A stretch of DNA of 52,038 bases from Calditrichota bacterium (GTDB taxonomy: Bacteria > Zhuqueibacterota > JdFR-76 > BMS3Abin05): assembly GCA_013151735.1 (NCBI GenBank), contig JAADHR010000027.1:3962-55999 (forward strand), in the 5' to 3' direction. This document shows, piece by piece, positions 13,101-49,819 of the stretch (the stretch's first letter is position 1; the number at the start of each line of letters is the position of its first letter). The notes beneath the pieces are model-generated. The model had not been told where the DNA came from and did not search any database. It worked only from the letters and a program-made list of their open reading frames with translations. The position numbers were made by a program, and so were the translations under genes.

Positions 13101-16100
13101 GCCGTATCCTCACGAAGAGGCTCACGTGATAACCGTTAACGGTGTTAAGAAGGGGGTGCCCTACGATTTTTGGGACCTGAACAATGACGGCATTAAAGAG
13201 CCCTACGAACCCTGGAGCTATGACAATTGGAATTATTCCCAGCAAAAGTTTTACGATTATCGCCACATTAATGGAACGGAAAACAATAAAAACGACGAGG
13301 GCGGCCGTTTCCCGGACACGGAGGATTTAAATCAGAACGGCGATGTGGATCTTCAGAATTCGTATTTTGAATTTACCTTTTCTTTGGACAAAACATCTCC
13401 TGATACGGCCCTCATTGCCGGCGGTAAGGGAAATGAACACGGCTGGCGAATGTACCGGATTCCACTTCAGGATCCCACACTAAAAGTAGGCAGTCCTCAG
13501 TGGACAAATATTGAATATGTCCGAATCTGGGTCGATCATTTTGACAAACCCGGTTTTTTAAGCATCGCAGAAATTAACCTGGTTGGAAGTGATTGGAAGG
13601 AAAAGGGCGTGGCTATTTCCGATTCTTCGGAGTACGACGCCAAAAATGACACAACCGTGGCGGTTACCGTGATTAACACGCACGACAACCCGGAGTACAC
13701 GCCTCCGCCCGGGGTTGAGGGGGTTCGGGACCGGATTACGCAGGTGCAAAGCAAAGAACAGGCCCTTGTGCTTAAAATTACGGATCTGGAACCGGGGAAT
13801 AATGGAATCGTTCAGAAAACCTTTTTTAAGGGACAGAGTTTTATCGATTACAATAAGCTCAAAATGTTCGTTTATGGTAAGGATCCTTTTGCCACACACA
13901 TGACCAAGGATTCCTCCAAAATTGAGTTTTTCTTCCAGTTTGGTTCCGATGAAAACAACTATTACGAATTTCGGGAAAAGGTGTACCCCCGCTGGGACAA
14001 GCGCAACGAAATGATTATTGATTTTGAAGATTTAACCGGCCTCAAACTCGATTCGACACATGTGGATATGTACGGGAATCTGATTCGTTTTGTCGGCGGG
14101 AAAGAATATCGTATCGTGGGCCGTCCGACACTGACGAACATTCGTCAGATGACGGCGGGTGTGAAGAATTTGGACAGAGATCAGCCCTTTACGGGTGAAA
14201 TCTGGCTGAATGAGCTCCGGCTGGTGGATGTAAAGAAAAATAAGGGAATTGCCATGCGGATGCGGGGGGATTTGCGCCTGGCCGATGTGGCCACTCTGAA
14301 TGCCAGTCTTACTAAAAAGACAGCTGATTTTCACACGGTGAATGAGCGGTTTGGCAAAGGGAATAATTCCATTCGGGCCAGTGTGAACGGAAGCTTGCAG
14401 CTCCACAAATTCCTGCCCAAATTTCTGGGGTTGTCCATTCCTCTGTCCTTTGGATACAATACCAGCCAGGCCACGCCCAAATACTACCCCGGAAGCGACA
14501 TTCTGGTTACGCCCAAAACGGTTTCGGACAGTCTTCTGGAAACGATTCAATCCAGAAACAAGCGAATCAACTGGAGTATTAATATTCGGCGCGGAAAAAA
14601 ATCTCAAAACCCATTTTTGCGATACACCGTAGATGCCATGTCACTGGGGTTAAGCAATGCCCAAACGGAAATGAGTAACTCCACAACCAAGAAAAGCACG
14701 GGCAAGACCAGCACGGGGAATTTTTCCTACAGTGTTAATTTTCCAACAAAAAAGGGAGTCAAGCTCTTCTCGTGGTTGGGAAACGGCCCGATTGTCAATA
14801 AATTAAGCAAGGTAGAGATGATCCTCTGGCCGTCACGATTCAATTACAAGATCACCGGAAACCGCGCCGATAATTTTTCTGAACTGCGAAACGGCCTGAC
14901 CACGCCGAAGTACACATTTGTGGTCAATCAAAATCTGGGCGTTGGCTTTCAGCCCATTCGGAGCTTTTCCCTGGATTTTACCCAGTCGCGGACACGGGAT
15001 CTCTACAATGTGAAAAATCCGGCTGAAATCTTGAACGGCCAGTTTGGAGAAATGACGGGTTTGTCGCAGCAAATCAATAGTAAATTCAGTCCGAGGCTGT
15101 TCAGCTGGCTCGCAATGAATTTTTCAGGCGGGACCAATTTCAGGTGGAATAATAATATTCAGAACCGGAAAACCGGACAAAATGCCAGCTCGTCTTCAAA
15201 TTTCAGCAGCTCGTTTACCTTAACACCCAAGAACCTCTTCAGACTCTTTTTGGGGAAGTCCTCGGGGAGAAGGCGGTTTTCCACTATTCGCAGACGTCGG
15301 GCTGTTTCGACTCCCCGAAGAAGGCGAAAAGAACCACAGGCGAAAAAGGGGACACCCCCCGGAGAAAAAAAGGAAAAGCCCAAAAAGAAAGTAGGTGTTC
15401 CCATTTTCAAATGGATTGGTCTGGCCGGAAGCAAAATCAATCCGATTTCTATTCGGGTGTCGCGGCGCGCCAATAGTCGTGTGGTGGGCTTAAATGGAAT
15501 GCCGACCCTAAACTATCAATTGGGACGTACATACAACCCGGGCGTGAAAACCGTGGATGCTGTGGGGAGCAACCGGAGTTCATTCAATTTTTCAAACGAT
15601 GTATCGCTTTCCAGCGGTTTAAATCTGAGTCGAAATATTTCGATCAATCTGAAATATGCCTACAACAATTCGAAAAATCGTACCACGCGCGCAACGGGCA
15701 GTATTTCTCAAACCGTTTGGAAAATGGGTGAAAAGGAAATGGCCATTCCGGATTGGACCTTCCGCTGGAGCGGATTGGAAAGATTGCCCCTTTTCAAGAA
15801 ATTTGCCCAGCGCGTGAGTCTGGACCATGCCCGAAGCGGGCGAAAAGTCATAAAATGGAATGATCGGGTGGACAATAAATCCAGTGTACAAACGACGGTA
15901 AACTATCGGCCGCTTATTGGACTGACGATGACCCTTAAAAAGGGGATTAATGTGAGCCTTCAGGTGAACAGTTCCATGAGCGAAAATTTTAACTACGCCG
16001 GAGGGCTGGACGCAACACGAAAAACCAATACGGATATTTCATTGACGACCACGTATCGCCATTCAGGTGGTTTGAAAATCCCCATCCCCTTCTTAAAGAC

Positions 16101-16368
16101 AAAGGAAATTCGGAATAATATTGATTTTTCAATGGGATTTAATTACAGCAAAAACAGAACCCTCTGGAAACGGGGAGAGAGGGGAAAATATGTGGAGCGC
16201 ACCCGAATGGGGAAATGGTCCATTACGCCAAAAATTTCTTACTCCTTTAGTTCCACCGTACGCGGCGGCGTGCATTTTGAATATGGCCAGACCGATAACA
16301 AGCTCATGGGAAAAACAACCATTCAGGATTTTGGAATTAACGTAAATATTTCTATTGCCGGACGGTAG
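10198..16368 (+). CDS. sprA: SprA/Sov family outer-membrane protein
   Basis: A 2056-residue protein of the SprA (Sov) family, in Bacteroidota the giant outer-membrane beta-barrel that forms the type IX secretion pore. A signal peptide is plausible (hydrophobic stretch 10-26, ending EAFSA). Family signs include VNVYVDQDSERPFEFDNAI, the Asp-rich AYVDDFEGSKRETPLG near residue 787, repeated QFGSDENNYYEF-type strands, and a long C-terminal half of alternating aromatic strands ending FGINVNISIAGR, as expected for a barrel. It is somewhat shorter than Bacteroidota SprA (about 2400). A 47-residue Arg/Lys-rich insert interrupts the barrel part at 1687-1733. The ATG at 10198 is the only start after an in-frame stop at 10147, although its ribosome site is weak. 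No other type IX genes are in the window. Confidence 0.88.
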   Translation: MGRTGLNKGVALTWVVVFILFVLISEAFSASRQKQSATLGLRVGPPPNKVCAPLFKEEYAGLKQISINHPYLQNHLRGLKREFKIDSTRSYVTVSESFLGRWFRFPTFVPFKDYLSLGIAHQNRTLWQKGVHDRIFGKRLQKQGGKGIGFDIPIPIKSQAFQKIFGGASVGLKVVGNINIDGGLRHEKRSEVKTAINRQSDYNFKMKQTQRFTVKGNVGKKVNVYVDQDSERPFEFDNAIRLEYKGFDDEIIKSIKAGNIALSLPATQFVTFSGKNSGLFGIKANAQIGNLNITAIASQEKGQKKKLSIQGGATEDENKIQDYQYRKGTYFFLNDYYRNYYRKVNSDGLHEYDPKRVISKIELYKSDVRYESKPGSLPGWAIADINGTHPENPDTNTVDQRHYRGYFLRIDPTDYYVDRELGYIALNSPLREGEVLAAAYRDTSGSEVGDIHYVDDGTNKRIILQLIRPKNPRPSDPTWKLEWRNVYFLGSRNINKDGFNLKIFYKPPSGDPQETQMVNGKPVSYLQIFGLDKRDLNGNPTPDNILDDDPNIINWARGELIFPSLTPFAPAKTENSLLDSTKYVRAIYDTTDYQYITSKSNFYISVKAKIRQPNYNLGFNVIENSEVITLNGRRLVKGVDYIIDYFSGSLTILDEAATDPNASLNITYESNQLFQIDRKTLLGMRWDYQLFNDSFIGGTFLYLNQSTIDQKIRLGQNGPMTNFVWDLNSKLNFNPNFLTKAVNALPIVQTREPSTLKFEGELAQVIPNPNKQNNPKTGDNNGVAYVDDFEGSKRETPLGIMRRAWHLSSVPATIPDFFGYDQLPDSLKNTSRGHLIWYNPYQQVAIKEIWPERDVNPNVPQRVHVLSMEFYPRAVDGDPNKKIYSWNGVEQALSAGYADQSQSKYLEIWVKGDTGRIHIDFGQISEDAIPNLRLDTEDKKVNGIRNDILDDNEDVGLDGMLGADPPSWPYPHEEAHVITVNGVKKGVPYDFWDLNNDGIKEPYEPWSYDNWNYSQQKFYDYRHINGTENNKNDEGGRFPDTEDLNQNGDVDLQNSYFEFTFSLDKTSPDTALIAGGKGNEHGWRMYRIPLQDPTLKVGSPQWTNIEYVRIWVDHFDKPGFLSIAEINLVGSDWKEKGVAISDSSEYDAKNDTTVAVTVINTHDNPEYTPPPGVEGVRDRITQVQSKEQALVLKITDLEPGNNGIVQKTFFKGQSFIDYNKLKMFVYGKDPFATHMTKDSSKIEFFFQFGSDENNYYEFREKVYPRWDKRNEMIIDFEDLTGLKLDSTHVDMYGNLIRFVGGKEYRIVGRPTLTNIRQMTAGVKNLDRDQPFTGEIWLNELRLVDVKKNKGIAMRMRGDLRLADVATLNASLTKKTADFHTVNERFGKGNNSIRASVNGSLQLHKFLPKFLGLSIPLSFGYNTSQATPKYYPGSDILVTPKTVSDSLLETIQSRNKRINWSINIRRGKKSQNPFLRYTVDAMSLGLSNAQTEMSNSTTKKSTGKTSTGNFSYSVNFPTKKGVKLFSWLGNGPIVNKLSKVEMILWPSRFNYKITGNRADNFSELRNGLTTPKYTFVVNQNLGVGFQPIRSFSLDFTQSRTRDLYNVKNPAEILNGQFGEMTGLSQQINSKFSPRLFSWLAMNFSGGTNFRWNNNIQNRKTGQNASSSSNFSSSFTLTPKNLFRLFLGKSSGRRRFSTIRRRRAVSTPRRRRKEPQAKKGTPPGEKKEKPKKKVGVPIFKWIGLAGSKINPISIRVSRRANSRVVGLNGMPTLNYQLGRTYNPGVKTVDAVGSNRSSFNFSNDVSLSSGLNLSRNISINLKYAYNNSKNRTTRATGSISQTVWKMGEKEMAIPDWTFRWSGLERLPLFKKFAQRVSLDHARSGRKVIKWNDRVDNKSSVQTTVNYRPLIGLTMTLKKGINVSLQVNSSMSENFNYAGGLDATRKTNTDISLTTTYRHSGGLKIPIPFLKTKEIRNNIDFSMGFNYSKNRTLWKRGERGKYVERTRMGKWSITPKISYSFSSTVRGGVHFEYGQTDNKLMGKTTIQDFGINVNISIAGR

Positions 16369-29857: not shown

Positions 29858-29896
29858 AAAAAGCCGATAATCGTAAATGAGTTTGTCGGCTTTTTT
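29858..29896 (+). terminator. Terminator of the ATP synthase operon
   Basis: 10-bp stem AAAAAGCCGA / TCGGCTTTTT with an 18-base loop; the right arm runs into a T-run (29891-29896). Confidence 0.75.
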
Positions 29897-30011
29897 ATGA
29901 TCGGAGAATTTTACACCCTGAAATAGAGGCTTGGGGGGGATTTTACGGAAAATCCTGTTGATTATTTCGAAAAAAAAGCCGAAAGAATAATAACCCTTAA
30001 AACTCTAAAGA

Positions 30012-33000
30012 ATGGTGCATTCAATGATTTCGAAGAAGAATGGTTCGGCAGCGTCTGGAGTCCAGAAATCTCACGTTCAAAAACTTACCCTCATAATCAC
30101 ATTTCTTGTTCCGATTCTTTTTTGGGCCAACCTCAGCTTCTCACGTGCTCCCGATAAAGCTCGCCTGGAAAAACAATATGAAGCCCACGTCTGGAAAATG
30201 ATCGACGAAAAAACCAGCGATTTTTATTACGACATGGTTTATAAAGAGCAGTTCTTAACCATTATGATGGATAATCTGGTTGACGAGCTAAAGGTACGGA
30301 AAAAGGAAAAGCAGCCTATTTCTCAGATTTTTGACGCTCTTGTGACCCATGACACATCCGGGGATTCAGACTCTTTGATTCAAGCGTATTCTCAGGAGAT
30401 TCGCCGCGTTCTGGGGCTGATGGATGAACTAAAAGGACTGGAGAAAAAGGCGGATCAGGAAAATGACCGCTCCGTTCGCGCCCGTGCCGAGGCCATCAAG
30501 AATGATCTGAAGCAGGCCATTGAAGGAAATACCCGAAAATCATTCTCAAAAACGGATCCATTATCCAAATCCCTTATTTCCGAATACCAAAAAGAAATAG
30601 ACCAAATACTCGCCATTTTTAAGGAATTGGAACATTATGAGGCCCTTGCGCGAGCGGAAAACAATCAAGTTGCCCTTTCTGAAATTGCCCGGGAAAAATC
30701 TCGTTTAGAGCAGGTCCTCAGCAGCCAGGTGTCCCAATCGGATAACACGCTGGAAGCCCAGTATTTTAAGGAAATGGAAAATGTGATCAGTGTTTTGTAC
30801 CAATTGGATCATTTCCGGTCCCAGGTAAACCCGGACGAGGAAGACCTGTTGTTTAAAATCGATGCCCTGAAGGAAGAGGTACTGACAAATGTCGATCGCA
30901 AGCTGCTTCGGGTACTCGGATATACGGATTTTGCGCTTCTTCCCAGCGAATCCAAATTTGATGAATTTCTGGAAGAATGGAAGGCCACGCAAATCTTTAA
31001 TTATAAAATCAAACTGACGCGCGTGCGATTATTGCGCCAACGGCTAATTCAAGATTCCAATCTGGAACAGCTAAACCGCATGTTTCGCCGGGATTTAGCC
31101 GATGCCATTATGAGCTACAACCGGGAAGAATATCCCCTGGCCGAATTGGAATTCAGGGAACTTCTTGCGGAATATCCCTTCCAGGATATGGAAGATATCC
31201 ATTACCGTCTTGCGGAAATTTATATGGCCCAGGGAAAGTATGAAAAAGCCAAGCGAACCTTTGATTATGTTATTCAGCACTTTCCGAATTCAAAATATGT
31301 AAACGAGTCGTATTTCAAAATTCTGTTGATCACAGAGGCTCTTCACCAGAACGATCAATATTTTAAAGCCTTCAAAAAATTGCAAGCCCGCTATAAAAAC
31401 ACTCCAAAAGATGCGGTTTTTGAAAAAGCCTACTATTTGACAGGCTATGTTTACTTTAAGAAGGAAAATTACGATTTGGCCATTGCCACACTTCGGGCAA
31501 TTCCCGAAAACTCCGAGTATGCCCTTTCGTCGGAATTTTTGTTGGCCAGCGCATACGCCGGAGAACAGCGCTACCGCTCGGCAGCAAAAATCTTTCGCAA
31601 ATTGGTGGCCGAAACAAAAAAGAGGTCATCGGATCCACGGGCGAACCTTATCAAAAATAATTCTCTCTTAAAGCTCGGAATGATCTATTATGAAAATAAT
31701 GAACCCAAACTGGCCTTGGACTATTTTAGTCGGGTCTCTGAAGGTGACGGGGCCTATCAGGATGCACTGATTGGAAAAGCATGGGCAGAATTTCGTGAAG
31801 GGCAAATTAAATATACCGTAGAGGATCTGGACCGATTATTCTGGAATTTCATGAGCTCGAATACTGTTTACGAAGCCAAAACGCTTTCTGCCCATTGCTA
31901 TAAAATGATGGGAGACCCCGCCCGCGCCGCCCGGGATTTGCGTTATGTGGAAAATGCCAAAAAGGCGCTGGCCATTCTGACGGGAAAAAACAAGGAACGA
32001 GAAACGCTGGCCAGACGTCTTCAGGAATTGGACCAGATTCAGGAAGATGCCCTGAAACGGGGCGACCGGCTTCGGTTTCAGGAAGTTGTGTACCTGAAAC
32101 AAAAAATCAGAAGGATAATGGAAAACACCTATCCCTCCGGTAAACCGGGCCTCTACATGATGGATGAATTTGAAATGGAGCGGCAGCGTCTGGAGGACCT
32201 GGTGGGCGACCTGGAAACCTACCAGAAGATTGTTCAGAAATTGGGATACCGGGATTTAACCAAAAACATCGGCAAAACAAAGAATCGTTTACTTGCGATT
32301 TTGGGAAACTATTCCCCGCATAAATGGGCGGGGGAAACGGATTTTCTGTCCAATTATCCGTTTCTTCAGAGGCAGAGCATGCTTCGCTATAAGAACAAGG
32401 TGCTTTCTGAAATGTTGGCCGAAATTCAATCGGAATTAAACCAGGTTCAGGGCGATCAAAAAGAGGTCGAGAAATTGGTCGCTGAAGCCCGGAAAAAAGG
32501 AGATATAAAATCTCTTGTTCGGCTCGATTTTAACGGAGAAAATCTGGATAATATTTCTGACCGCCTGGAGGAATATGTTGTGTATTTAAATGGTGAACTG
32601 GATGATTCGCCGGAAGAAGATATTCAATATTATGCCGACTTTAGTGGTTTTGGTGTCAGCGACATCGACTTTGTTCGGCTCCAAAATATCGATGAAAAGA
32701 TAAAAAACTATTACGATTACATCAGCCTGATCAACAACGCTCTGAATATTCAGCAATTGGCTTTGAAAGACCGCATTTACACCATGAGCGATAGTCTTCG
32801 TCACGTGCAGCAGCGTCTGGAAGAAAAACGGAAGGAAGACTATCGAAAAGCCATAACTGCCTATTTTAATCAAGGATACTTTGTTTCCAAGAGTCAGGAA
32901 CACGCGGTCCAGCAAGAATCCCCGCGACAAACACAGGATCAGGGCATACAAGAGCTGCTGGATAAAAAATATCCCACGGCGAAAACTCCGGTGGAAAGCA

Positions 33001-33029
33001 AAGTCTTGATTAATAAAAAGAAAAAATAA
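30012..33029 (+). CDS. Large TPR and coiled-coil envelope protein (1005 aa)
   Basis: A 1005-residue protein of no named family. One hydrophobic segment (about 24-42) is a signal peptide or anchor. Residues about 45-340 are charged and helical, a TPR array occupies about 365-620 (ELLAEYPFQDMEDIHYRLAE, YEKAKRTFDYVIQHFPNSKY are typical repeats), and long coiled coils fill about 650-960. The end is a Lys-rich tail. It precedes another TPR giant by 38 bases and a TolQ/TolR/TonB-like set; large TPR proteins of this type are found with Agl-Glt gliding and related motor clusters. The start has a weak ribosome site; ATG 30024 is an alternative. Role as periplasmic scaffold is inference. Confidence 0.75.
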   Translation: MVHSMISKKNGSAASGVQKSHVQKLTLIITFLVPILFWANLSFSRAPDKARLEKQYEAHVWKMIDEKTSDFYYDMVYKEQFLTIMMDNLVDELKVRKKEKQPISQIFDALVTHDTSGDSDSLIQAYSQEIRRVLGLMDELKGLEKKADQENDRSVRARAEAIKNDLKQAIEGNTRKSFSKTDPLSKSLISEYQKEIDQILAIFKELEHYEALARAENNQVALSEIAREKSRLEQVLSSQVSQSDNTLEAQYFKEMENVISVLYQLDHFRSQVNPDEEDLLFKIDALKEEVLTNVDRKLLRVLGYTDFALLPSESKFDEFLEEWKATQIFNYKIKLTRVRLLRQRLIQDSNLEQLNRMFRRDLADAIMSYNREEYPLAELEFRELLAEYPFQDMEDIHYRLAEIYMAQGKYEKAKRTFDYVIQHFPNSKYVNESYFKILLITEALHQNDQYFKAFKKLQARYKNTPKDAVFEKAYYLTGYVYFKKENYDLAIATLRAIPENSEYALSSEFLLASAYAGEQRYRSAAKIFRKLVAETKKRSSDPRANLIKNNSLLKLGMIYYENNEPKLALDYFSRVSEGDGAYQDALIGKAWAEFREGQIKYTVEDLDRLFWNFMSSNTVYEAKTLSAHCYKMMGDPARAARDLRYVENAKKALAILTGKNKERETLARRLQELDQIQEDALKRGDRLRFQEVVYLKQKIRRIMENTYPSGKPGLYMMDEFEMERQRLEDLVGDLETYQKIVQKLGYRDLTKNIGKTKNRLLAILGNYSPHKWAGETDFLSNYPFLQRQSMLRYKNKVLSEMLAEIQSELNQVQGDQKEVEKLVAEARKKGDIKSLVRLDFNGENLDNISDRLEEYVVYLNGELDDSPEEDIQYYADFSGFGVSDIDFVRLQNIDEKIKNYYDYISLINNALNIQQLALKDRIYTMSDSLRHVQQRLEEKRKEDYRKAITAYFNQGYFVSKSQEHAVQQESPRQTQDQGIQELLDKKYPTAKTPVESKVLINKKKK

Positions 33030-33067
33030 AACGTTAGACGACAGCACTATAAAACGAGAGTAATTGC

Positions 33068-36000
33068 ATGGAAAAGCGCAGATTCCAGGGATGGAAAGTG
33101 GCCGTTGTATTCTTAATTATGAGCCTCATAATATGTTGGGGCAAAATAGGTTTTGCCCAGGAAACACTTATTGAAAAGGGTGAAAAATCATCCTACCAAA
33201 CGCTGCTGGATTCACTGGTTAAGACATTTTCCGCCGAAGATTTAATCAAGTTTCGTGAGTTTTATCAGAACGAAATTAATCGTCTGCAGCGTGAAAAAAA
33301 ACTCCTCCGTGAGAAAAATATTCAAAATGTTGAAAAATTACTCACCGAAAATCCCAATAGCCATTTTATCGACAAAATTTTACTGCGTTTGGGAGAGTTT
33401 TATTTTCAGGAAGCCGAAGAAACCTTCCTGAAACAGATGGATGCCTACGACAAAGCCTATTCGGAATACGAAAAGGGGCTGCGCCCCAATCCCCCGGATG
33501 AACCCAAAGTGGATTACTCCAAGGCACTGGAAAAATACCGTCTGATTGTCGATAATTTCCCCAACAGCAGTTTATACGATGATGCTCTTTATAATTTAGC
33601 CTACATCCTCGGCAAACAGGGGAAATCGGTAGAAGCTGTGGGTTATTATCGTGAGATTGCTTCAAAATTTCCAAAAAGCAAATACGCTCCGGAAGCCCTC
33701 ATGCAAATCGGGGAATATTATTTTAGTCCCTCTGTGAGAAATTACGATGAGGCGATTAAATACTACAAACTGGTTCTGAAATATAAAGACACCCCTCGTT
33801 ATGATGAAGCCCTGTATAAAATCGGATGGGCAAATTACCTGAAGGAAGATTTCCCTGCCGCGATTGCGTCGTTTACGACAGTTGTTCAAGATATCGAAAA
33901 AACAAAACCGGTGGATTACCAGGGCCTCTATTCCAACCCCTCTCTTGAAAACGAATCACTCGATTACATTGGCATTTGCTTCCACGATTACGGCGGCCTT
34001 GACGAGGCCTTAAGCTATCTGGCCGATTTAAAGTATCCAGACTACGGCGTGCGGATTCTCAAAAAACTGGGGGATGTTTACAAAAATAACGAAGAGAAAT
34101 TCCTGAGAGCCATTGCTACCTATGATGCCATTCTGCATTATTATCCGGATACACCTCAGGCCCCTCAAATCCAGAATGCGATTGTGATGTCGTTCAAACG
34201 ACTGGAAGACAACAACGGCGTTTATCGGGCCCAGCGAGAGATGTTCCTGAAATATCACCCGGGAAGCCAATGGGCGCAGGCGATGGAGAAGAAAATTCCC
34301 AATCCGCTTCTGCGGAGAAAAACCATTCGGGAAGCAACCGAACTGGTGAAGAAAACGATGCAGGAAAATATTAACCGGCTTCTTACCGATGCGGAGAGAG
34401 ATTCTTCTCTGGACTATTATCAACAAGCGGTGAAAAACAGCCGCATCTATTTAAAATATTTCCCGGATGATTCATTGGCCTACACGATTCACTGGAATAT
34501 GGCCGTTGTTCTGGATACGAAATTGAATGAGGATGAAGAGGCCTTTAAGGAATATGAGAAAATTGCCTTTGATTACACCAAGGACAAATATCGAAAGGAT
34601 GCCGCTCAAAATGCCATCGCTGTGGCCAATGAAATTTTGGAAAAGCATCATATTAAGCCCCTGAAAACAGCGGCCGACGATACCAGCAAGATCAGTGACT
34701 TTCAGAAGATGGCCGCTCGTCAGAAGGGAGCAGCCGGTCTTCAGGCGGTCAACCCGGATACCCTGAATGCAGATGAGCGGCGCCTGATTGAGGCCTACAA
34801 TAATTTCATCAAGCTCTTTCCGCAGGATAAAGATGCCTCGGTGGCTCTGGCCAATGCCGGAATTCTGTTCTACAATAAGAAGCAGTTTGAAAAAGCCCTG
34901 AGATATTTTAACACCCTCATTCAACGCTTCCCGAATAGTCCGGAGCTGACCCAGGCGCAATTTACGGCTATGGAAAGCTATTTTGGAAAACAGGATTTTG
35001 TAAGCGCCGAATTAATGGCCAAAAAAATTCAATTAAGCAAAAACGTACCCGAAGCAGTGAAGAAGAAGGCCATTCGCCGCATGTCCGAGTCAATTTTTCT
35101 GCACGCTCAGGCGCTTGCAGACAGCGGAAATCATCTGGCAGCCGCCAAAGAGTATCGGAGGGTTGTGAAAGAAGTGCCCAACGCCAAATTTGCCGATTTG
35201 GCCCTCTATCAATCGGCTGTGGAATATGATAAGGTTTCGGAATACAATCAGGCCGTTGAAGTTTATCAGTATTTAATTGATCATTTTCCTTCATCCAAAT
35301 ATTACCTGGATGCCATGAACAACCTGGCACTGGATTATGGCGAATTGAAGGACTATAAATATGCGGCCAATACCTATGAAAAGCTCTGGAAAGCCACGCC
35401 GGATTCTGCAAAAGCGCAGGATGCGTTGTACAACGCCAGTTTCTTTTCGGTCAAGGCTAAGGATTGGCGAAATGCGATCCGGATAAACAAGCAGTACGTG
35501 AAAACATATCCCAAATCTGCTGATGCGGAAAATATGTTTTACAATATGGCCGAATATTATTTAAAACTGGATGATCTGGATCAGGCCAATAGAATCTGGG
35601 ATGAATTTGGAACCAAATACCCGGATTCGCCCCGGGGTGTGGAGACCTTTTTCAAGCGCGGCGAATATTTTATGAACAAGGGGGAACATGATCAGGCCAT
35701 TGCGGAATTTGACCGGGCGCTGAAGCGAAACTCAGAATTGAAAACAAAAAATCTTAAAACGAATGATTACTACGCAGCAGAAGCCCTCTTCTTAAAATCG
35801 GAATTAATGTACAATGACTACAAAAAAATCCGGTTTACTCTGGCGAATATGGAGGCTCAAAAAAATCGGAAAAAAGAGCTGTTGAATCAATTGGTTTCTC
35901 AGTATGAAGAGGTGGCCGCCTACGGCACGATTCGGTTGTACGAAGCCACCTACGACATTGGAAAGGTTTACGAAGAATTCGCCAATGCCTGGGATTCCCA

Positions 36001-37744
36001 GGAAATTCCTCAAATGGACGAAACCCGTCAGATTGTGTACCGAACAAAAATTCACCAAACGTCCGCACAATTATACGAAAAAGCCCACAATTCCTACCGC
36101 TCAGCGTTTGTTCTGCTGAGAAAGCTTGAGATGGCCAGCAAACCGTCTGCACCGGATTCAACAGCCCTGGCGGACACAACGGGTAAAGATTCAACCCAAA
36201 ATCACTCGATTCGCGTGGCTGAGAAGGACAGTACCCTTCGGGTCATGAAACGCTGGGTAAAGCGTTCGGGTGAAAAGACCTCCGAGATGCTTTACCGGAT
36301 TGCCGATCTGAATTTTGCTTCTATTGAACAAATCTTGTCGGCGCCCATTCCCGGGGGCCTGGACCCCGTGGCCACACTGGAATACAAAAATCAGGTGTAT
36401 CTAAAAGCAGTTAAGCCGACGGTGGATAAAATTGTTCAGGCCCATCTCCGAAACATCAATGAAGCCGATTCACTTCAATTGGAGAATATGTGGGTGGCTC
36501 GTTCGCGGCAAAAGCTGCTGCAGGTCTTTAAGATTCTTCCGGCAAAATATTACCAGCTGGCAAAAGGCACAATCGATACTTACCGGAAAATGAAGCATCA
36601 GTACTATTATATTATGACGAAGGGAACAGATGCTGAAAAGGAGGATGCCCTTAATTTAGCCGGGGATTTGTTGAATGTGATCGAATTGGGGAAAAAGTAC
36701 ACGCAAATTATGACGCGTTTTTACCAGTGGGAATTGGATAATTTTCTTAAACACAATTTCCCGGAAAAATATGCGGAACAGGGAATCAATGACTATCTGG
36801 AAAACACCTACGATATAGCCGACACCTACAAACTGGAGGCGGATTCGGCACGGGCACTAAAGGACTATTTTTCGGCCTTGAATCAAAAGGACCCGATGCC
36901 CGAGTATGAGGACGCCATTTACACCTATTCGGATAATTTTAATTCGTTACACGATGCGGCACTTGAGATTGCCGCAGATGCATACGATTACAAGAAATCC
37001 CATAATTTACAAAGCCTGGCAATTAGCCGCATTTCCAGTCTTCTTATCGAACTGGATCCCGTCACGTACGCCAAAGAATTCGCGGTGTCTACAGATTCCG
37101 TTTATATTCCGGCGGATAGCACGTGGCTGGTCCGTACAGCCGTTGATTCCAACTGGATCCAGAACGATGCCCCGGATTCCTCCTGGCTGCATGCAGAAAA
37201 AATGGCCTGGGATTCCACCGGGAAAGCCCTGTTCCCGGGGCAGGTCGCTTACAGCATGAATATTCCCATGGAACTGGATACCGTGTTTGCGGATACCTCT
37301 GCAGGGGATTCCGTACAAAAAGCTGCGTCCAGGCCCTTTCATCTGGTACCCAAACAACCGTATCCGGGCGAGTTGTATTTCAGAAAACACGTCGAAATCA
37401 GCGACATTCCGGTGTCTGCCATGCTCAAAATTCAGGCGGACGACAACATGGAAATTTTCCTAAACGGCGTAAAGGTTTTCCAGGAAAAGGCCGATACATT
37501 AGGGTGGAAGCAAGCCTTCCCTGTGAATGTGAATGAGTTTATCCGGCAAGGAGATAATGTGGTAGCCATTCACGTAACAGACACAGACAGTACCCGGAAA
37601 GGCATGCGGGCGATCTTTCAAATCCAGCTCCTGCGAAAAGCAACGATTCAGAAGGTGAGTCAGTCGGTTAAGCAGGAAGAAATTAATTATGAAAAAGAGG
37701 TTGAAAAACAGGCCTTTCTTCTAAATCATGTGCTCAAGCCCTAA
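33068..37744 (+). CDS. Giant exported TPR protein with C-terminal beta-sandwich domain (1558 aa)
   Basis: A 1558-residue exported protein. The signal peptide ends GKIGFA, with Gln31 as the likely first mature residue. At least a dozen TPR-like repeats span about 90-950 (for instance KYRLIVDNFPNSSLYDDALY, YYREIASKFPKSKYAPEALM, FDRALKRN), in YfgC/YbgF style where each repeat ends in FPxS. A helical part follows (950-1330), and the last 170 residues form a beta-rich domain with YFRKHVEI and IQADDNMEIFLNGVKVF, like the galactose-binding-type jelly rolls attached to glycosidases. It sits inside the motor operon; a periplasmic or surface scaffold that touches glycan is inference. Confidence 0.78.
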   Translation: MEKRRFQGWKVAVVFLIMSLIICWGKIGFAQETLIEKGEKSSYQTLLDSLVKTFSAEDLIKFREFYQNEINRLQREKKLLREKNIQNVEKLLTENPNSHFIDKILLRLGEFYFQEAEETFLKQMDAYDKAYSEYEKGLRPNPPDEPKVDYSKALEKYRLIVDNFPNSSLYDDALYNLAYILGKQGKSVEAVGYYREIASKFPKSKYAPEALMQIGEYYFSPSVRNYDEAIKYYKLVLKYKDTPRYDEALYKIGWANYLKEDFPAAIASFTTVVQDIEKTKPVDYQGLYSNPSLENESLDYIGICFHDYGGLDEALSYLADLKYPDYGVRILKKLGDVYKNNEEKFLRAIATYDAILHYYPDTPQAPQIQNAIVMSFKRLEDNNGVYRAQREMFLKYHPGSQWAQAMEKKIPNPLLRRKTIREATELVKKTMQENINRLLTDAERDSSLDYYQQAVKNSRIYLKYFPDDSLAYTIHWNMAVVLDTKLNEDEEAFKEYEKIAFDYTKDKYRKDAAQNAIAVANEILEKHHIKPLKTAADDTSKISDFQKMAARQKGAAGLQAVNPDTLNADERRLIEAYNNFIKLFPQDKDASVALANAGILFYNKKQFEKALRYFNTLIQRFPNSPELTQAQFTAMESYFGKQDFVSAELMAKKIQLSKNVPEAVKKKAIRRMSESIFLHAQALADSGNHLAAAKEYRRVVKEVPNAKFADLALYQSAVEYDKVSEYNQAVEVYQYLIDHFPSSKYYLDAMNNLALDYGELKDYKYAANTYEKLWKATPDSAKAQDALYNASFFSVKAKDWRNAIRINKQYVKTYPKSADAENMFYNMAEYYLKLDDLDQANRIWDEFGTKYPDSPRGVETFFKRGEYFMNKGEHDQAIAEFDRALKRNSELKTKNLKTNDYYAAEALFLKSELMYNDYKKIRFTLANMEAQKNRKKELLNQLVSQYEEVAAYGTIRLYEATYDIGKVYEEFANAWDSQEIPQMDETRQIVYRTKIHQTSAQLYEKAHNSYRSAFVLLRKLEMASKPSAPDSTALADTTGKDSTQNHSIRVAEKDSTLRVMKRWVKRSGEKTSEMLYRIADLNFASIEQILSAPIPGGLDPVATLEYKNQVYLKAVKPTVDKIVQAHLRNINEADSLQLENMWVARSRQKLLQVFKILPAKYYQLAKGTIDTYRKMKHQYYYIMTKGTDAEKEDALNLAGDLLNVIELGKKYTQIMTRFYQWELDNFLKHNFPEKYAEQGINDYLENTYDIADTYKLEADSARALKDYFSALNQKDPMPEYEDAIYTYSDNFNSLHDAALEIAADAYDYKKSHNLQSLAISRISSLLIELDPVTYAKEFAVSTDSVYIPADSTWLVRTAVDSNWIQNDAPDSSWLHAEKMAWDSTGKALFPGQVAYSMNIPMELDTVFADTSAGDSVQKAASRPFHLVPKQPYPGELYFRKHVEISDIPVSAMLKIQADDNMEIFLNGVKVFQEKADTLGWKQAFPVNVNEFIRQGDNVVAIHVTDTDSTRKGMRAIFQIQLLRKATIQKVSQSVKQEEINYEKEVEKQAFLLNHVLKP

Positions 37745-37839
37745 GTCACTAAAGCAGAACGGGCGCTGCTTGTCGGCCGTTTTCTCATCCGGCCTTTTCG
37801 AAAACGCCGGGAAGCAAGAGTTTAACAGAGGATGCAAAA

Positions 37840-38187
37840 ATGAGATACCTGGTTGCCGTGAGTTTGGCCGTATTGGTCAGTATGTTTCTATCTACCGGGA
37901 CGGTGAATGCTCAGGAAGCCCCGTCAAAAAAGAAGGCGGCGCCGCCCAAAACATCAAAGGAATTGGTCCTTAAAGCGCTTCATGTGGAGGCACATATTGA
38001 GAAACCGAGTGTTTCCATTGTTCCCAAGCGAATTGAGCCCAAGCTAAAAGAAGTGGAATTCATCCGCCGTTCTTTCAGCAAAGAAATAAAAAACGTGCCC
38101 CGAGAACTCCTCTATATGGAGATTAAAAAATCGAAGAGCAAGCAGATGGCAGAGGCACGCGAAATGTTGCGAAAAGAACGAAAATAA
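37840..38187 (+). CDS. Small exported basic protein of unknown function
   Basis: A 115-residue protein with a clean signal peptide ending TGTVNA and Gln25 as the first mature residue. The mature part (about 91 residues) is Lys-rich, with a KKKAAPPK stretch, then a possible beta part (LKALHVEAHIEKPSVSIVPKRIEP) and a basic C-terminal helix. I recognise no family. It sits 95 bases after the TPR giant and 38 bases before the TolQ-like gene, so it is probably a part of the same envelope machine. Confidence 0.7.
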   Translation: MRYLVAVSLAVLVSMFLSTGTVNAQEAPSKKKAAPPKTSKELVLKALHVEAHIEKPSVSIVPKRIEPKLKEVEFIRRSFSKEIKNVPRELLYMEIKKSKSKQMAEAREMLRKERK

Positions 38188-38225
38188 CATCATTCCCCAA
38201 AAAAAATGAAACAGGAGGTATGAAC

Positions 38226-38888
38226 ATGGGAGAATTCGTCCAAATATTCCATGCATTTAAGATCGGAGCCCCAGGATGGCTTTTTATGTGGATGCTGCTG
38301 GTTACAGCCGTGTTTGTTGTGGCTCTGGCAATTGAGCGTGCCTATTTTATCAGTATTCGCTCAAATATCAATGCGGACAAATTTATGAAAGACATCCGTC
38401 GTCTGGTTACGAAAGGTCAGTACAAAGAGGCCGTTCAGGTTTGTGAAAAACTGAACGACAAAGCGCTTCCGTATGTGGTAGGAACCGGTCTTCGGGTTCT
38501 GGACAACGATGATGAAGAAGTCGATTTCCGAACGGTTCAGAATGCCGTTGACGAGGGAACCCTGGAAATCATCCCCAAATTGCAGCAGCGAACGGGCTGG
38601 CTGGCGACCCTTGGAAATGTGGCCACCTTGTTGGGCCTGATGGGCACGATTTACGGGCTTATCCTGGCGTTCAACTCCGTGTCTTCTCCGGGCGTGGATG
38701 CCGCTGAAAAATCCCGGTTGTTGGCTGCGGGCATTTCAACAGCCATGAACACAACGCTGATCGGTCTGTCCATTGCCATTCCGGCTGTGCTGGTGTACAC
38801 GTACATCCACAACAAAACGATGGAAATTATCGATGAAATTGACGAACACACGGTAAAACTGATCAATTTAATTACGGGGAACAAATAA
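38226..38888 (+). CDS. MotA/TolQ/ExbB-family proton channel protein
   Basis: A 220-residue inner-membrane protein with three membrane segments (about 15-37, 115-140, 160-185) and a cytoplasmic domain between the first two. The TWO-TM pore region GNVATLLGLMGTIYGLILAF and GISTAMNTTLIGLSIAIPAV is diagnostic of TolQ/ExbB stators. The ATG at 38226 is chosen because AGGAGG (38213-38218) is 7 bases before it; the ATG at 38220 is too close. Two TolR-like genes follow at once, so it should form the stator that turns proton flow into force. Confidence 0.92.
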   Translation: MGEFVQIFHAFKIGAPGWLFMWMLLVTAVFVVALAIERAYFISIRSNINADKFMKDIRRLVTKGQYKEAVQVCEKLNDKALPYVVGTGLRVLDNDDEEVDFRTVQNAVDEGTLEIIPKLQQRTGWLATLGNVATLLGLMGTIYGLILAFNSVSSPGVDAAEKSRLLAAGISTAMNTTLIGLSIAIPAVLVYTYIHNKTMEIIDEIDEHTVKLINLITGNK

Positions 38889-39427
38889 TGGCTTTCAAAC
38901 CGTCAAAACGCAAAAGACGTCCGGATGCGGTTGAACCGGAATTGAATTTGACACCCATTATGAACTTGATGGTCGTTCTGATTCCCTTGCTCCTGACCTC
39001 GGCAGAATTTGTAAAACTGGGCATTATTGAAATCAATCTGCCCCCGGCCGCCGGAGCCACGATGACATCCGTCTCGAAAATGCCTCAGGAAGCAGAGAAA
39101 AAGCTCGATCTGACGGTTACCGTCACTGATCAGGGATTTTACATCGCCAGCAGCGCAGCCGTAGCGCTGGGTCAAAACGGTGAGGGTCCCACGATCCCAA
39201 AAGAGGCCGATGGGTACGATTACAAAAAACTGTCTGACTATCTGTACCGGATCAAGAAAAAGGCCGCCGGCATTTTCAGGGATTCAAATCGGATTATCAT
39301 TTTGGCTGAGCCATCCATTAAATATCAGACCGTAGTCAGCACGATGGATGCCTCAAGAAGCATTGAAGTGGATGGAAAACTAAAACCGCTGTTTCCGGAT
39401 GTTTCATTGGGAGCAACAGTACTTTAA
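38888..39427 (+). CDS. ExbD/TolR-family protein lacking the conserved Asp
   Basis: A 179-residue protein with one N-terminal membrane helix (about 24-42) and a periplasmic ExbD-like domain. In TolR and ExbD the helix starts with a conserved Asp (INIVPLLD in E. coli TolR) that carries protons; here the aligned residues read LNLTPIMN, so Asn26 replaces it. The codon is AAC, two changes from... a single-base G-to-A change away from Asp GAC. The end of the TolQ gene and this start share one base. It may act as a structural partner to the Asp-bearing paralogue downstream. Confidence 0.88.
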   Translation: MAFKPSKRKRRPDAVEPELNLTPIMNLMVVLIPLLLTSAEFVKLGIIEINLPPAAGATMTSVSKMPQEAEKKLDLTVTVTDQGFYIASSAAVALGQNGEGPTIPKEADGYDYKKLSDYLYRIKKKAAGIFRDSNRIIILAEPSIKYQTVVSTMDASRSIEVDGKLKPLFPDVSLGATVL

Positions 39428-39448
39428 AATTAAAGAACGGAGTAACAA

Positions 39449-39943
39449 ATGGCCTTTATCCCTTCTCGAATAAAAAGGCATGGTACCGGTAGTGGTGAAG
39501 TAAAACTGAATCTGACCTCAATGATGGATATGTTCACCATTATCCTGGTCTTTTTATTAAAAGTGTATTCCAGTGAAGGGCAAATGATTCAACCCTCTCA
39601 GGATCTGACCCTGCCGAATTCTTCGGTCAACAAACATGCGGAGGTGGCTCTCGATCTGAAAGTTTCCAAGGAATGGGTTGTGTTGAACGACAAACCGGTG
39701 GCCAAAATTTCGGATGTGCTTTCGGAACGGAGCCTGGTTATTCCGGCTCTGGCACACGAATTGAAAAAATATGCTACAGAAGCGCAAAAAGCGGAAGAAG
39801 AATATGGGACACCCTTTACCGGGAAAGTGATTATTCAGGGTGATAAAGATTTGCCCTATAAGGTCCTCGTTAAAATTATGGCCACCTGCGGCCGTTCGGA
39901 GTATCCAAACATGAGACTTTTGGTGTACCATAGCCAAGGGTAA
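39449..39943 (+). CDS. ExbD/TolR-family protein with the conserved Asp
   Basis: A 164-residue paralogue of the previous gene, 21 bases downstream. The membrane helix begins LNLTSMMDMFTIILVFLL, so Asp27 occupies the proton-carrying place that is Asn in its neighbour. The periplasmic part (about 50-164) has the ExbD fold with VIIQGDKDLPYKVLVKIMATCG near the end. With the TolQ-like protein it should form the working stator. Confidence 0.9.
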   Translation: MAFIPSRIKRHGTGSGEVKLNLTSMMDMFTIILVFLLKVYSSEGQMIQPSQDLTLPNSSVNKHAEVALDLKVSKEWVVLNDKPVAKISDVLSERSLVIPALAHELKKYATEAQKAEEEYGTPFTGKVIIQGDKDLPYKVLVKIMATCGRSEYPNMRLLVYHSQG

Positions 39944-39947
39944 TTCA

Positions 39948-41111
39948 TTGGACGAATCAAACCAAAAAACGAGTCTGGATATGAAACATAAAAATAAAAA
40001 TCTTTCTCCATTTGACAATGGAAGTGACGTAGCCACTGTGGAAGAGAAAAAGAGCGTTCCAAAGAACACTGAAACCCTCATCATCGATCCGGATCGGTAC
40101 AAAAAACACGCGCTGCAGAAAATGGATCGGCGGTTTTGGGGGATTGTTCTGGCGACATTTCTCTTTAATACGATTCTTATGATTTATCTTTCCAATCTCC
40201 CGTATCAGATTTCGGAAAATGCGGCTCGGCGGATTCAGGAACATTATGCCAACTTCATTTATCAGAAACAGAAGAAATCCTCCGTTGTAAAGGAATCGGC
40301 AGTGGCGAAAAAGAACGTCGAAGGCAAGAAAGAAGAATCGAAAAAGGTGGCGGAGCAGCCGCCTGCCGAGGCAAAATCCGGTGGAACATCTGCAGGCAGT
40401 CGTGCAAAGGGTCCAGCTACGGCAAAGGAGCGCGTGGCGGCCCGATCCAGAAGCACCCGTCAGATTTCACAGGAAGTGAGTAAAAAGGGACTGTTGGGCC
40501 TGTTAACGGGTACAGGAGAGGCCGCGCAGGGCGAAGCCGTAAGAGATGTCCTGGGGAATGATGCGGGGCAGACAAGCGGGAAAAATTTGGACAAAATTCT
40601 TTCAAATATTGGTGGGATTAAAACCTCCGGCGCATCGGAAGGTGTCGGAAAAGGAGGCAGCGGCCGCGTTAGAGGAGGCCGGGCCACCGGAGCGGGTGCC
40701 GCCATCGGCGATATTGTAACAGGTTTGGGACAGGCGCAAACAACATCCGTGCGGAAGAAAACAAAAATGAAGCTGTTTAAATCCGCAAACGTAAAAGCCG
40801 AAGCCGGGAAATCCGGCGGACGCAGTGCGCAAAGTGTTCTGGCCGTGATTAATTCTCACAAAGCGGCTATCGAGTACTGTTACCAGCGCGCCCTTCGAAC
40901 CAATCCGAATCTCAAAGGAAAAATTTCGGTTCGTTTTGTGATCCACCCGGATGGAAGCGTTGGAAAAGTCACCGTTATTGAATCGACGCTGAACAATTCG
41001 AGTGTGGAACGCTGTATTGTCAGCAAGATTCGGCGCTGGCGCGATTTCGGCCCGGTCGATCCCTCAAAAGGCGATGCCGTGTTCCGGCAGGATTACATTT
41101 TCGGATATTAA
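39948..41111 (+). CDS. AgmX/PglI C-terminal domain protein (TonB-like energy transducer)
   Basis: A 387-residue protein with an N-terminal cytoplasmic tail, a membrane helix (about 62-82), a long low-complexity periplasmic linker rich in Lys, Ala, Gly and Ser (about 105-270), and a C-terminal AgmX/PglI domain (about 285-387). That domain holds the family's Cys pair (IEYCYQRAL and VERCIVSKIRRWRDFG) and the TonB-like VRFVIHPDGSVGKVTV. In Myxococcus such proteins belong to the gliding machinery. The TTG at 39948 is used because AAGGG lies 7 bases before it; ATG 39981 has no ribosome site. Last gene of the cluster. Confidence 0.87.
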   Translation: MDESNQKTSLDMKHKNKNLSPFDNGSDVATVEEKKSVPKNTETLIIDPDRYKKHALQKMDRRFWGIVLATFLFNTILMIYLSNLPYQISENAARRIQEHYANFIYQKQKKSSVVKESAVAKKNVEGKKEESKKVAEQPPAEAKSGGTSAGSRAKGPATAKERVAARSRSTRQISQEVSKKGLLGLLTGTGEAAQGEAVRDVLGNDAGQTSGKNLDKILSNIGGIKTSGASEGVGKGGSGRVRGGRATGAGAAIGDIVTGLGQAQTTSVRKKTKMKLFKSANVKAEAGKSGGRSAQSVLAVINSHKAAIEYCYQRALRTNPNLKGKISVRFVIHPDGSVGKVTVIESTLNNSSVERCIVSKIRRWRDFGPVDPSKGDAVFRQDYIFGY

Positions 41112-41257: not shown

Positions 41258-41284
41258 GGCCCCGGATTGGATCCGGGGCTTTTT
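41258..41284 (+). terminator. Terminator of the motor operon
   Basis: Perfect 9-bp stem GCCCCGGAT / ATCCGGGGC, 3-base loop, followed by TTTTTT. Confidence 0.9.
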
Positions 41285-48541: not shown

Positions 48542-49819
48542 TTGGATGCGTCATATCTGATTTTTGGTGGAGTTTTTGTTCTTTTACTGGTGTTATCGGC
48601 CTTTTTTTCAGGCACCGAAACGGCCTTTTTCGCGATCAGTAAAATCGATCTGGCAAAGCTGAAAGACGAGCGCTCGTCTTCGGCCAAAAAGATTGTCCGC
48701 CTCCTGAATGATCAGCGGAAATTGCTCATTACTATTCTCACCGGGAATACGCTTGTAAATATCGGCTCGGCCGTTATTGCCACTATTTTGACCGTAAAAT
48801 TGATTCAACAGTACCATCTCAGTGAAACCTGGAGCATGTTTTTTGAGGTGGTTGTGGTAACATTTCTCATTCTGATTTTTGGAGAGATAACGCCAAAAGT
48901 GCTTGCCGTGAAGCGCCCGGTGGCATTTGCGCGAAAGGTTGTTTTTTGGATTGATCTGATTTATTTGGCATTTTATCCGGTTTCAACCTCTCTGGAGCAA
49001 TTTACCCTCTTTTTTTCCAGACTTTTTCATCTCCAGAAAAGCGAACATTTTTTGTCGGAGGAAGAATTACGGGTTCTGATCGAATTGGGCGAAGAAAAAG
49101 GCACCATTCAGGAAGAAGAAAGAGAAATGATTGACTCCATTTTTGAGTTTGGTGAAACGACCGTCCGAGAAATCATGGTGCCGCGTATCGATATGGTTTC
49201 TGTAGAGGCAACCACGCCAATTGAGGATCTGGTGGAACTGATTCAAAAGGCGGGGCATTCCCGGATTCCGATTTATGAGGAAAGAATTGATAATATCGTG
49301 GGAATCATTCACGCCAAGGATCTGATTCCCTATTTAATAGATTCCAAAAACGTGGCCAATCTCAAAAAACTGGCGCGCCCCGCGTATTTTGTTCCCGAAA
49401 GCAAAAAAATTGACGATCTTCTTCGTGAATTTCAGCAGGAAAAAACACACATGGCCATTGTTGTGGACGAATACGGGGGCACCGCCGGGCTGGTTACTCT
49501 GGAGGATGTCATTGAGGAAATTGTCGGTGAGATTCAAGATGAGTACGATCAGGAACAGCCGCTTTTTAATAAAATTGCAGAAAATATCTGGCTGGTTGAT
49601 GCCAAAATCGATATTCCCGAATTTAATGAAATCTTTCCCGAACCCCTTCCTGAAGACGAGGATTACGAATCGCTTGGGGGGTTTATCTTTGATATTACCG
49701 GCAATGTTCCGGAAGAAAATGAAGTCATACAATGGGGAAATTACAAATTTCAGATTGAAAAATTGGAAGGGCAGCGCATTGCCAAGGTAAAGGTAATTTA
49801 TTTGCCGCCCAAGGATTAG
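48542..49819 (+). CDS. CNNM/CorC-type transporter with CBS pair (HlyC/CorC family)
   Basis: A 425-residue membrane protein: a DUF21/CNNM membrane domain with about four helices (about 1-170, starting FFSGTETAFFAISKIDL), two CBS domains (about 205-330, MVPRIDMVSVEATTP and PAYFVPESKKIDDLLREF) and a C-terminal CorC_HlyC domain (about 340-425). Relatives export or sense magnesium or sodium. The TTG at 48542 is used: AAGGAGGA lies 11 bases before it and no ATG is in frame before the first helix. Placement after ybeY is common. Confidence 0.9.
   Translation: MDASYLIFGGVFVLLLVLSAFFSGTETAFFAISKIDLAKLKDERSSSAKKIVRLLNDQRKLLITILTGNTLVNIGSAVIATILTVKLIQQYHLSETWSMFFEVVVVTFLILIFGEITPKVLAVKRPVAFARKVVFWIDLIYLAFYPVSTSLEQFTLFFSRLFHLQKSEHFLSEEELRVLIELGEEKGTIQEEEREMIDSIFEFGETTVREIMVPRIDMVSVEATTPIEDLVELIQKAGHSRIPIYEERIDNIVGIIHAKDLIPYLIDSKNVANLKKLARPAYFVPESKKIDDLLREFQQEKTHMAIVVDEYGGTAGLVTLEDVIEEIVGEIQDEYDQEQPLFNKIAENIWLVDAKIDIPEFNEIFPEPLPEDEDYESLGGFIFDITGNVPEENEVIQWGNYKFQIEKLEGQRIAKVKVIYLPPKD

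Follow-up and report, generated by a model that had tools for sequence, protein, structure and literature searches.

The Seven-Gene Locus

The window analysed here, a stretch of 52,038 nucleotides on contig 27 (JAADHR010000027.1) of the 3.95-Mb draft genome of a Calditrichota bacterium (GCA_013151735.1), carries at positions 30012-41111 seven open reading frames (ORFs), all on the forward strand, whose products are predicted to form a proton-driven machine of the cell envelope. Judged from its gene content and order, this operon is a member of the Agl-Glt core complex, a variant of the set described in 2011 (PMC3169522), in candidate division KSB1, which is the name used here for a phylum some members of which are titled "Calditrichota". 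The ORFs encode proteins of 1005, 1558, 115, 222, 179, 164 and 387 residues in the order TPR1-TPR2-small-TolQ-TolR1-TolR2-AgmX and are flanked by atpC upstream and aspS downstream. The largest intergenic gap, 95 bases, lies between the end of the TPR2 gene (37744) and the start of the small gene (37840). At the upstream edge, after atpC, the forward strand has an inverted repeat that resembles a terminator and includes a T run (about 29866-29903); this repeat was read by eye (AAAAAGCCGATAA ... TTTGTCGGCTTTTTT) and is absent from the list of the terminator scanner because its loop is too long for that program. The downstream edge is formed by a strong intrinsic terminator on the same strand (41258-41280), in which a 10-pair stem is followed by a T run.

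A previous sequence-only reading of this DNA had described seven same-strand genes, separated by no more than 95 bases and enclosed by two terminators, as a motor with a periplasmic scaffold. All the ORFs are indeed present where it placed them and both terminators are there; the coordinates of six genes stand, and that of the AgmX start probably does not. The 387-residue ORF begins at TTG 39948, and ATG 39981, giving 376 residues, is the more likely start, since in the nearest relative a stop codon lies shortly before the reading frame that the two share; the alignment likewise begins there.

Searches with Pfam and NCBIfam confirmed tetratricopeptide repeats (TPRs) in both large proteins, predicted to be exported, TPR1 (30012-33029) and TPR2 (33068-37744). 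They also confirmed a MotA_ExbB domain in TolQ, the presumed proton channel subunit (38220-38888; 84.5 bits), and ExbD domains in TolR1 (38888-39427; 41.6 bits) and TolR2 (39449-39943; 57.3 bits). The small gene (37840-38187) encodes a protein that is likewise predicted to be exported, and the last gene (39981-41111) encodes a candidate transducer with one transmembrane helix, a long periplasmic linker and a TonB-like C-terminal domain of the AgmX/PglI type.

Relatives of the Scaffold and Transducer Proteins

The sequence-only reading held that the two giant TPR proteins and the 115-residue protein are not known parts of any machine. This view was mistaken or went too far: TPR2 and the small protein have homologues at the Agl-Glt loci, and TPR1 stands at the position of GltC. 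A profile of TPR2 matched proteins of a Myxococcus qinghaiensis genome with up to 498 bits (E = 9.3e-149) and of Anaeromyxobacter with 506 bits (E = 1.9e-151), over about 940 residues, and a further profile search of Myxococcus and Anaeromyxobacter gave 508-515 bits. In the clusters around the matched proteins, NCBIfam models recognise, in this order, GltC, then after the TPR2 relative GltE, CglF and GltG. The TPR2 relative itself matches no NCBIfam model, and its position between GltC and GltE identifies it as GltD. By these profile matches TPR2 is a GltD homologue, and one with a C-terminal extension: the GltD-like matches from Myxococcus end near residue 1000 of the profile, and those from Fibrobacter and Latescibacterota reach into the C-terminal part. 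In a structure model of TPR2 residues 920-1558 (mean predicted local distance difference test score, pLDDT, 84.5) long helices are followed by a beta sandwich at residues ~1342-1522 (window positions 37091-37633) and a final helix. By fold this sandwich is similar to jelly-roll domains found in glycoside hydrolase family 2 beta-glucuronidases (Foldseek E ~3e-4 to 1e-3), in agreement with an NCBIfam rhamnosidase jelly-roll match at residues 1436-1522 (E = 1.8e-8). The presence of a C-terminal jelly-roll on the KSB1 GltD is a new observation. Two stretches from Fibrobacterota (L229:1930-7752 and L232:7874-13738) encode still longer TPR2 relatives, of 1941 and 1955 residues, with no motor genes in the fetched stretch.

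TPR1 occupies the position of the GltC-like genes of two external loci (L220 and L222) and is the first gene in loci that are not cut by a contig end. Its AlphaFold model (pLDDT 75.8) shows a TPR superhelix at residues ~340-640 between long helices.

When searched alone, the 115-residue protein of the window matched no family in Pfam or NCBIfam, and its kinship becomes visible only with a family profile, which we built from 32 KSB1 members. This profile matched, with 24-28 bits, the short gene located directly before the GltG-like genes of Myxococcus and Anaeromyxobacter, and two of these short genes in turn match the NCBIfam CglF model with 68 and 59 bits. An hhalign comparison of the KSB1 small family with the CglF set gave a probability of 97.5, a score to which the signal peptides contribute. 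CglF is the same protein as GltF (PMC4488436), and so, as far as profiles can tell, the 115-residue protein is distantly homologous to CglF/GltF. Luciano et al. (2011) assigned gltF to a late group of genes restricted to Myxococcales and Bdellovibrionales and noted an unnamed additional gene in the operon elsewhere (PMC3169522). Our comparisons suggest that the GltF family and this additional gene are one family and that GltF belongs to the ancient core, a point which is new here; it revises the 2011 assignment of gltF as late-acquired and probably gives the additional gene its name.

The C-terminal domain of the AgmX protein matches the AgmX/PglI model NF033768 with 91.8 bits (cut-off 40), and TonB_C stays below its cut-off. 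The whole protein is a GltG-like transducer lacking the FHA domain and not an equivalog of GltG.

The Motor Subunits

The affiliation of TolQ was examined in a tree of 123 rows (a quick IQ-TREE run with SH-aLRT as the only branch support, external rows sampled through the TolR2 motif, and long branches flagged). A clade of 105 rows with SH-aLRT 100 unites the KSB1 TolQs of the window's type (type A) and of a second type (type B, described below) with those of Fibrobacterota, Latescibacterota, Fermentibacterota and Myxococcota. TolQ and ExbB of E. coli and 15 other KSB1 TolQs fall outside this clade. The tree thus places the TolQ of the window in the AglR type, apart from E. coli TolQ/ExbB and from the other KSB1 TolQs. 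This agrees with the Agl-Glt kinship that had been proposed from the sequence and with the expectation that the operon is neither a simple TonB uptake system nor a Tol-Pal set; clustering of TolQ with the Tol-Pal or TonB systems, which was looked for, is not seen in the tree.

The two TolR proteins differ at the column of the proton-binding Asp23 of E. coli TolR. All 41 KSB1 TolR1 sequences compared have Asn in this column, and Asp is kept in TolR2 of KSB1 without exception (40/40; SMMDMFTIILVFLLK in the window). External loci from many phyla were fetched with a pattern derived from the TolR2 motif, which demanded this very Asp, and its occurrence in 85/85 external TolR2 sequences is therefore not an independent result; the TolR1 counts are free of such bias. 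Among the external motors with an adjoining AgmX/GltG-like gene, TolR1 has Asn or Ser in all 25 cases with a readable residue, whereas the free-standing motors, which have room downstream and no AgmX/GltG-like gene there, have Asp in TolR1 in 24 of 24 cases. The Asn of KSB1 TolR1 and this division among the external motors are new observations. The state of this residue changes three times on the tree, the Asp form being confined to Myxococcota and closely grouped delta-type records, and the association therefore rests on few events.

Since the Asn partner cannot carry a proton, the natural reading of this asymmetry is a heterodimeric TolR1-TolR2 shaft with one proton site, as we infer for the KSB1 motor. 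The observation bears on a question raised for M. xanthus, whose AglQ and AglS are both described as having the aspartate and for which the choice between homo- and heterodimers was left unresolved (PMC9389320).

Conservation in Candidate Division KSB1

We compared 82 KSB1 genomes. An orthologous, type-A TolQ (E below 1e-70) is present in 64 of them, including that of the window, and is clearly distinct from a second TolQ paralogue of ~40% identity. When the neighbourhoods of the 63 other TolQ loci were scored with profiles derived from 33 of these loci, the full seven-gene order was recovered in 49, which rules out a chance arrangement. Ten of the 14 incomplete loci are truncated by contig ends. 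In three more, all from one genus, AgmX and the small protein are too diverged for the profiles, the genes being visible in place as ORFs in two of them (the third is L271), and at the remaining locus, L283, the profile search gave no AgmX match. A shortened and strongly diverged AgmX next to typical motor genes was observed in genus g15 (L044:3942-4811 and L058:12948-13724). This conserved order supports the proposal that motor and scaffold genes constitute one functional unit, and the assignment of the DNA to the KSB1 lineage holds as well.

The second paralogue belongs to a parallel, type-B cluster with shorter TPR proteins (~470 and 955-1030 residues). Seven of the 82 genomes have neither a type-A nor a type-B TolQ. 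A real loss of the motor was considered for three of these (G004, G031 and G079) and rejected, as their TPR genes run into contig ends; three others, of family f19, have type-B scaffold and AgmX genes with no motor next to them, and in a genome of 76% completeness the profile search revealed nothing convincing of either set. At least a part of the type-A or type-B set is present in 81/82 genomes, and the TPR genes are accompanied by the motor in almost all relatives; TPR genes lacking the motor in most relatives, which would have spoken against a common machine, are not observed. Such syntenic and near-universal conservation in a whole candidate phylum implies that the core complex does something basic there. 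The neighbouring genes do not reveal what this is: those of type A (atp genes, aspS, LysM, phoH) are housekeeping genes without a functional clue, and those of type B (aldehyde dehydrogenase, fumarylacetoacetate hydrolase, short-chain dehydrogenase/reductase, SpoU, Memo) offer no hint either. All in all, the locus is real, well conserved and was correctly recognised as a motor, but it is less new than the sequence-only reading had claimed.

Relation to Known Systems

The gene order of the KSB1 operon recurs in Fibrobacterota, Latescibacterota, Fermentibacterota (where AgmX is weak) and several Myxococcota and Deltaproteobacteria. One supposed Calditrichota locus from outside the phylum (L218) was rejected, as its contig corresponds to one of a same-phylum genome (G049) and is hence not independent. 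The core complex has been known since 2011 as a single operon of unexplained function in Fibrobacter and in Gamma-, Beta- and Deltaproteobacteria (PMC3169522). The Group B core of that study (GltC, GltD, GltE, GltG, AglR, AglQ and AglS; Fibrobacter, Gamma- and Betaproteobacteria, Geobacter) shares with the KSB1 operon, besides the single-operon arrangement, an AglR-type TolQ, two unlike TolRs, a GltG-like transducer, a GltD-like TPR protein, a TPR protein at the GltC position and a small extra gene. In contrast to it, the KSB1 operon has no separate gltE, its GltD carries the jelly-roll extension and its GltG lacks FHA; in many genomes it has atp genes on one side and aspS on the other, and its small gene is recognised as GltF-like.

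With the gliding (Agl-Glt) and spore-coat (Agl-Nfs) machines of M. xanthus the KSB1 operon has in common a homologous motor, GltD, GltF and GltG and a TPR protein at the GltC position. It differs from them in that outer-membrane Glt proteins are missing from it, in that motor and scaffold are encoded in one operon instead of scattered loci, and in that TolR1 has Asn where the gliding-type motors of Myxococcota have Asp. A cluster of Fibrobacter succinogenes, FSU_2397-2403 (TPR, TPR, unnamed, ExbB, ExbD, ExbD, TonB; PMC6851124), shows the same order by annotation only, under seven consecutive locus numbers; in its place, a related Fibrobacter metagenome-assembled genome (L128/L231) was compared in sequence and matches. 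The TolQ-two TolR-vWA systems of the Planctomycetes-Verrucomicrobia-Chlamydiae (PVC) group (PMC12204202) likewise combine a TPR gene with a tolQ-like gene and two tolR-like genes that differ from each other, but their transducer is a protein with a von Willebrand factor A (vWA) domain, unlike the TonB-like protein of AgmX/GltG type in KSB1. Finally, GldLM/PorLM of the type IX secretion system (T9SS) is a 5:2 motor driven by the proton motive force that acts across the periplasm in organisms with SprA; KSB1 has TolR and AgmX parts instead.

Possible Function

The best overall explanation, and in our opinion quite a probable one, is that the operon encodes the KSB1 version of the Agl-Glt core, i.e., a motor with a periplasmic scaffold that moves or energises a component of the envelope. 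By analogy with Myxococcus, where AglR interacts with GltG (PMC3169522), the machine could be a 5:2 motor with five AglR-type TolQ subunits around the TolR1-TolR2 pair, in which protons would pass via the Asp of TolR2 only. The resulting motion of the TolR pair, a turn or a shift, would be passed on to the GltG-like protein, whose TonB-like C-terminal domain would cross the periplasm, where the GltF-like peptide and the GltD-like and GltC-like TPR scaffolds would be its targets; these scaffolds may in turn be connected with the outer membrane or with cargo at the surface. The likeliest job of such a machine is to move or energise an outer-membrane or surface component, for instance a polysaccharide on the cell surface or proteins anchored there, in preference to the uptake of ions or siderophores. 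According to PMC3169522 and PMC3858216, a single M. xanthus motor serves both gliding and the transport of spore-coat polysaccharide, and this kind of motor moves either adhesion complexes or that polysaccharide. Few families of force transducers driven by protons exist, and the Agl-Glt core is among them.

Several observations weigh against this explanation. The GltG model matches the AgmX protein with 102.5 bits over the second half of GltG, below the equivalog cut-off of 650, and the FHA domain is missing from that protein. The similarity of TPR1 to GltC is weak (24.9 bits, cut-off 450) and covers the TPR repeats only. There is no separate gltE in the operon, no gene at all being found between TPR2 and the small gene, a result for the operon, as GltE was not searched genome-wide. 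Furthermore, three genomes of family f19 (G037, G059 and G060; loci L227, L226 and L228) have a type-B TPR1-TPR2-small-AgmX set without adjacent motor genes, and motor and scaffold are therefore separable.

Alternatively, the motor could be that of the KSB1 T9SS, working in place of GldLM, with the TPR scaffolds linking it to the SprA translocon and its cargo. SprA (window positions 10198-16368) and T9SS C-terminal sorting domains, 16 to >60 per genome, occur in 82/82 KSB1 genomes, and the near-universal type-A/B sets would fit such a role, but shared ancestry equally gives universal presence of both systems in one phylum. The proposed co-occurrence check with SprA was carried out and, SprA being in 82/82 genomes, is uninformative inside the phylum. 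The GldM profile found nothing in the 82 genomes, a negative of doubtful weight because no positive control genome gave a match either. Together with the universal T9SS parts it makes a link of the machine to surface proteins attractive. The faint PorW/SprE match of TPR2 (24.5 bits) does not exceed what TPR proteins share in general. SprA was also detected in all nine tested core-complex genomes from Fibrobacterota, KSB1/Calditrichota, Latescibacterota, Fermentibacterota and Coatesbacteria, in eight of them above the cut-off. However, it is absent from all seven tested genomes of Myxococcota and related bacteria with the core complex, and therefore the machine is not T9SS-specific. We consider a T9SS motor unlikely for KSB1, and similarly doubtful is the more general proposal that TolR1 and TolR2 of core-complex motors always pair as a heterodimer with one proton-carrying Asp, giving a mechanically distinct half-site 5:2 motor, and that this motor powers a T9SS-linked outer-membrane process in phyla of the Fibrobacterota-Chlorobiota-Bacteroidota (FCB) type as a replacement of GldLM.

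There is also a small chance that the operon encodes a maintenance system of the cell wall and outer membrane comparable with Tol-Pal. In its favour, the machine is near-universal in the phylum, at least one of the two related sets being present in almost all complete genomes, and peptidoglycan binding is expected of domains of the TolR type; but neither TolB nor Pal is encoded in the operon, and TolQ lies outside the branch of E. coli TolQ/ExbB and of the other TolQ families of KSB1.

Whole-cell gliding as in Myxococcus is possible, with a low probability, and the operon offers no support for it in the form of genes dedicated to adhesion at the outer membrane. The homologues of GltC (by position), GltD, GltF, GltG and AglRQS all belong to the gliding machine, but GltA, GltB, GltH, GltK and CglB are missing from the operon, a statement that applies to the operon, no genome-wide search having been made. 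Reports of Group A genes were limited to Myxococcales and Bdellovibrionales, and the same study did not consider the core by itself to be enough for gliding (PMC3169522). The free-standing Myxococcota motors, moreover, have Asp in both TolRs, and the KSB1 motor does not. For the Fibrobacter cluster FSU_2397-2403, which is up-regulated on cellulose (PMC6851124), a role in the energised uptake of products of polysaccharide breakdown was proposed. Such a role in KSB1 would suit the resemblance of the TPR2 jelly-roll to the sugar-binding domains of glycosidases, but it is improbable, since the neighbourhood lacks a TonB-dependent receptor, the C-terminal domain of AgmX is of the AgmX/PglI type, with TonB_C below its cut-off, and the likeness to the cluster itself comes from annotation.

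Additional Loci

The type-B sets of family f19, which have no tolQ-tolR-tolR genes between the small gene and AgmX, resemble the arrangement in Myxococcus, whose motor is encoded elsewhere. A third TolQ/TolR pair, whose TolQ forms a separate branch, is found beside a large TPR protein (912 and 733 residues, respectively) in the genome of the window (L240:218-5999, on G000:C15) and in G037 (L237, on G037:C170). In family f16 a further TolQ lies on a separate branch. In G035 (L245:2207-6297) it has a TolR and an AgmX-like gene with it, and this extra set sits directly after the type-B cluster; in G024 (L249) it has an AgmX-like gene beside it. A KSB1 type-A operon is also carried by a record titled "Actinomycetota bacterium" (L109, JAACEJ010000351.1), a title that is probably misassigned, as comparison with the same-phylum genome G048 indicates. 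In the window itself, positions 48542-49819 encode a GldE-like CNNM/CBS protein (392 bits, above the cut-off), which is probably an ordinary protein of the CorC type despite its gliding name.

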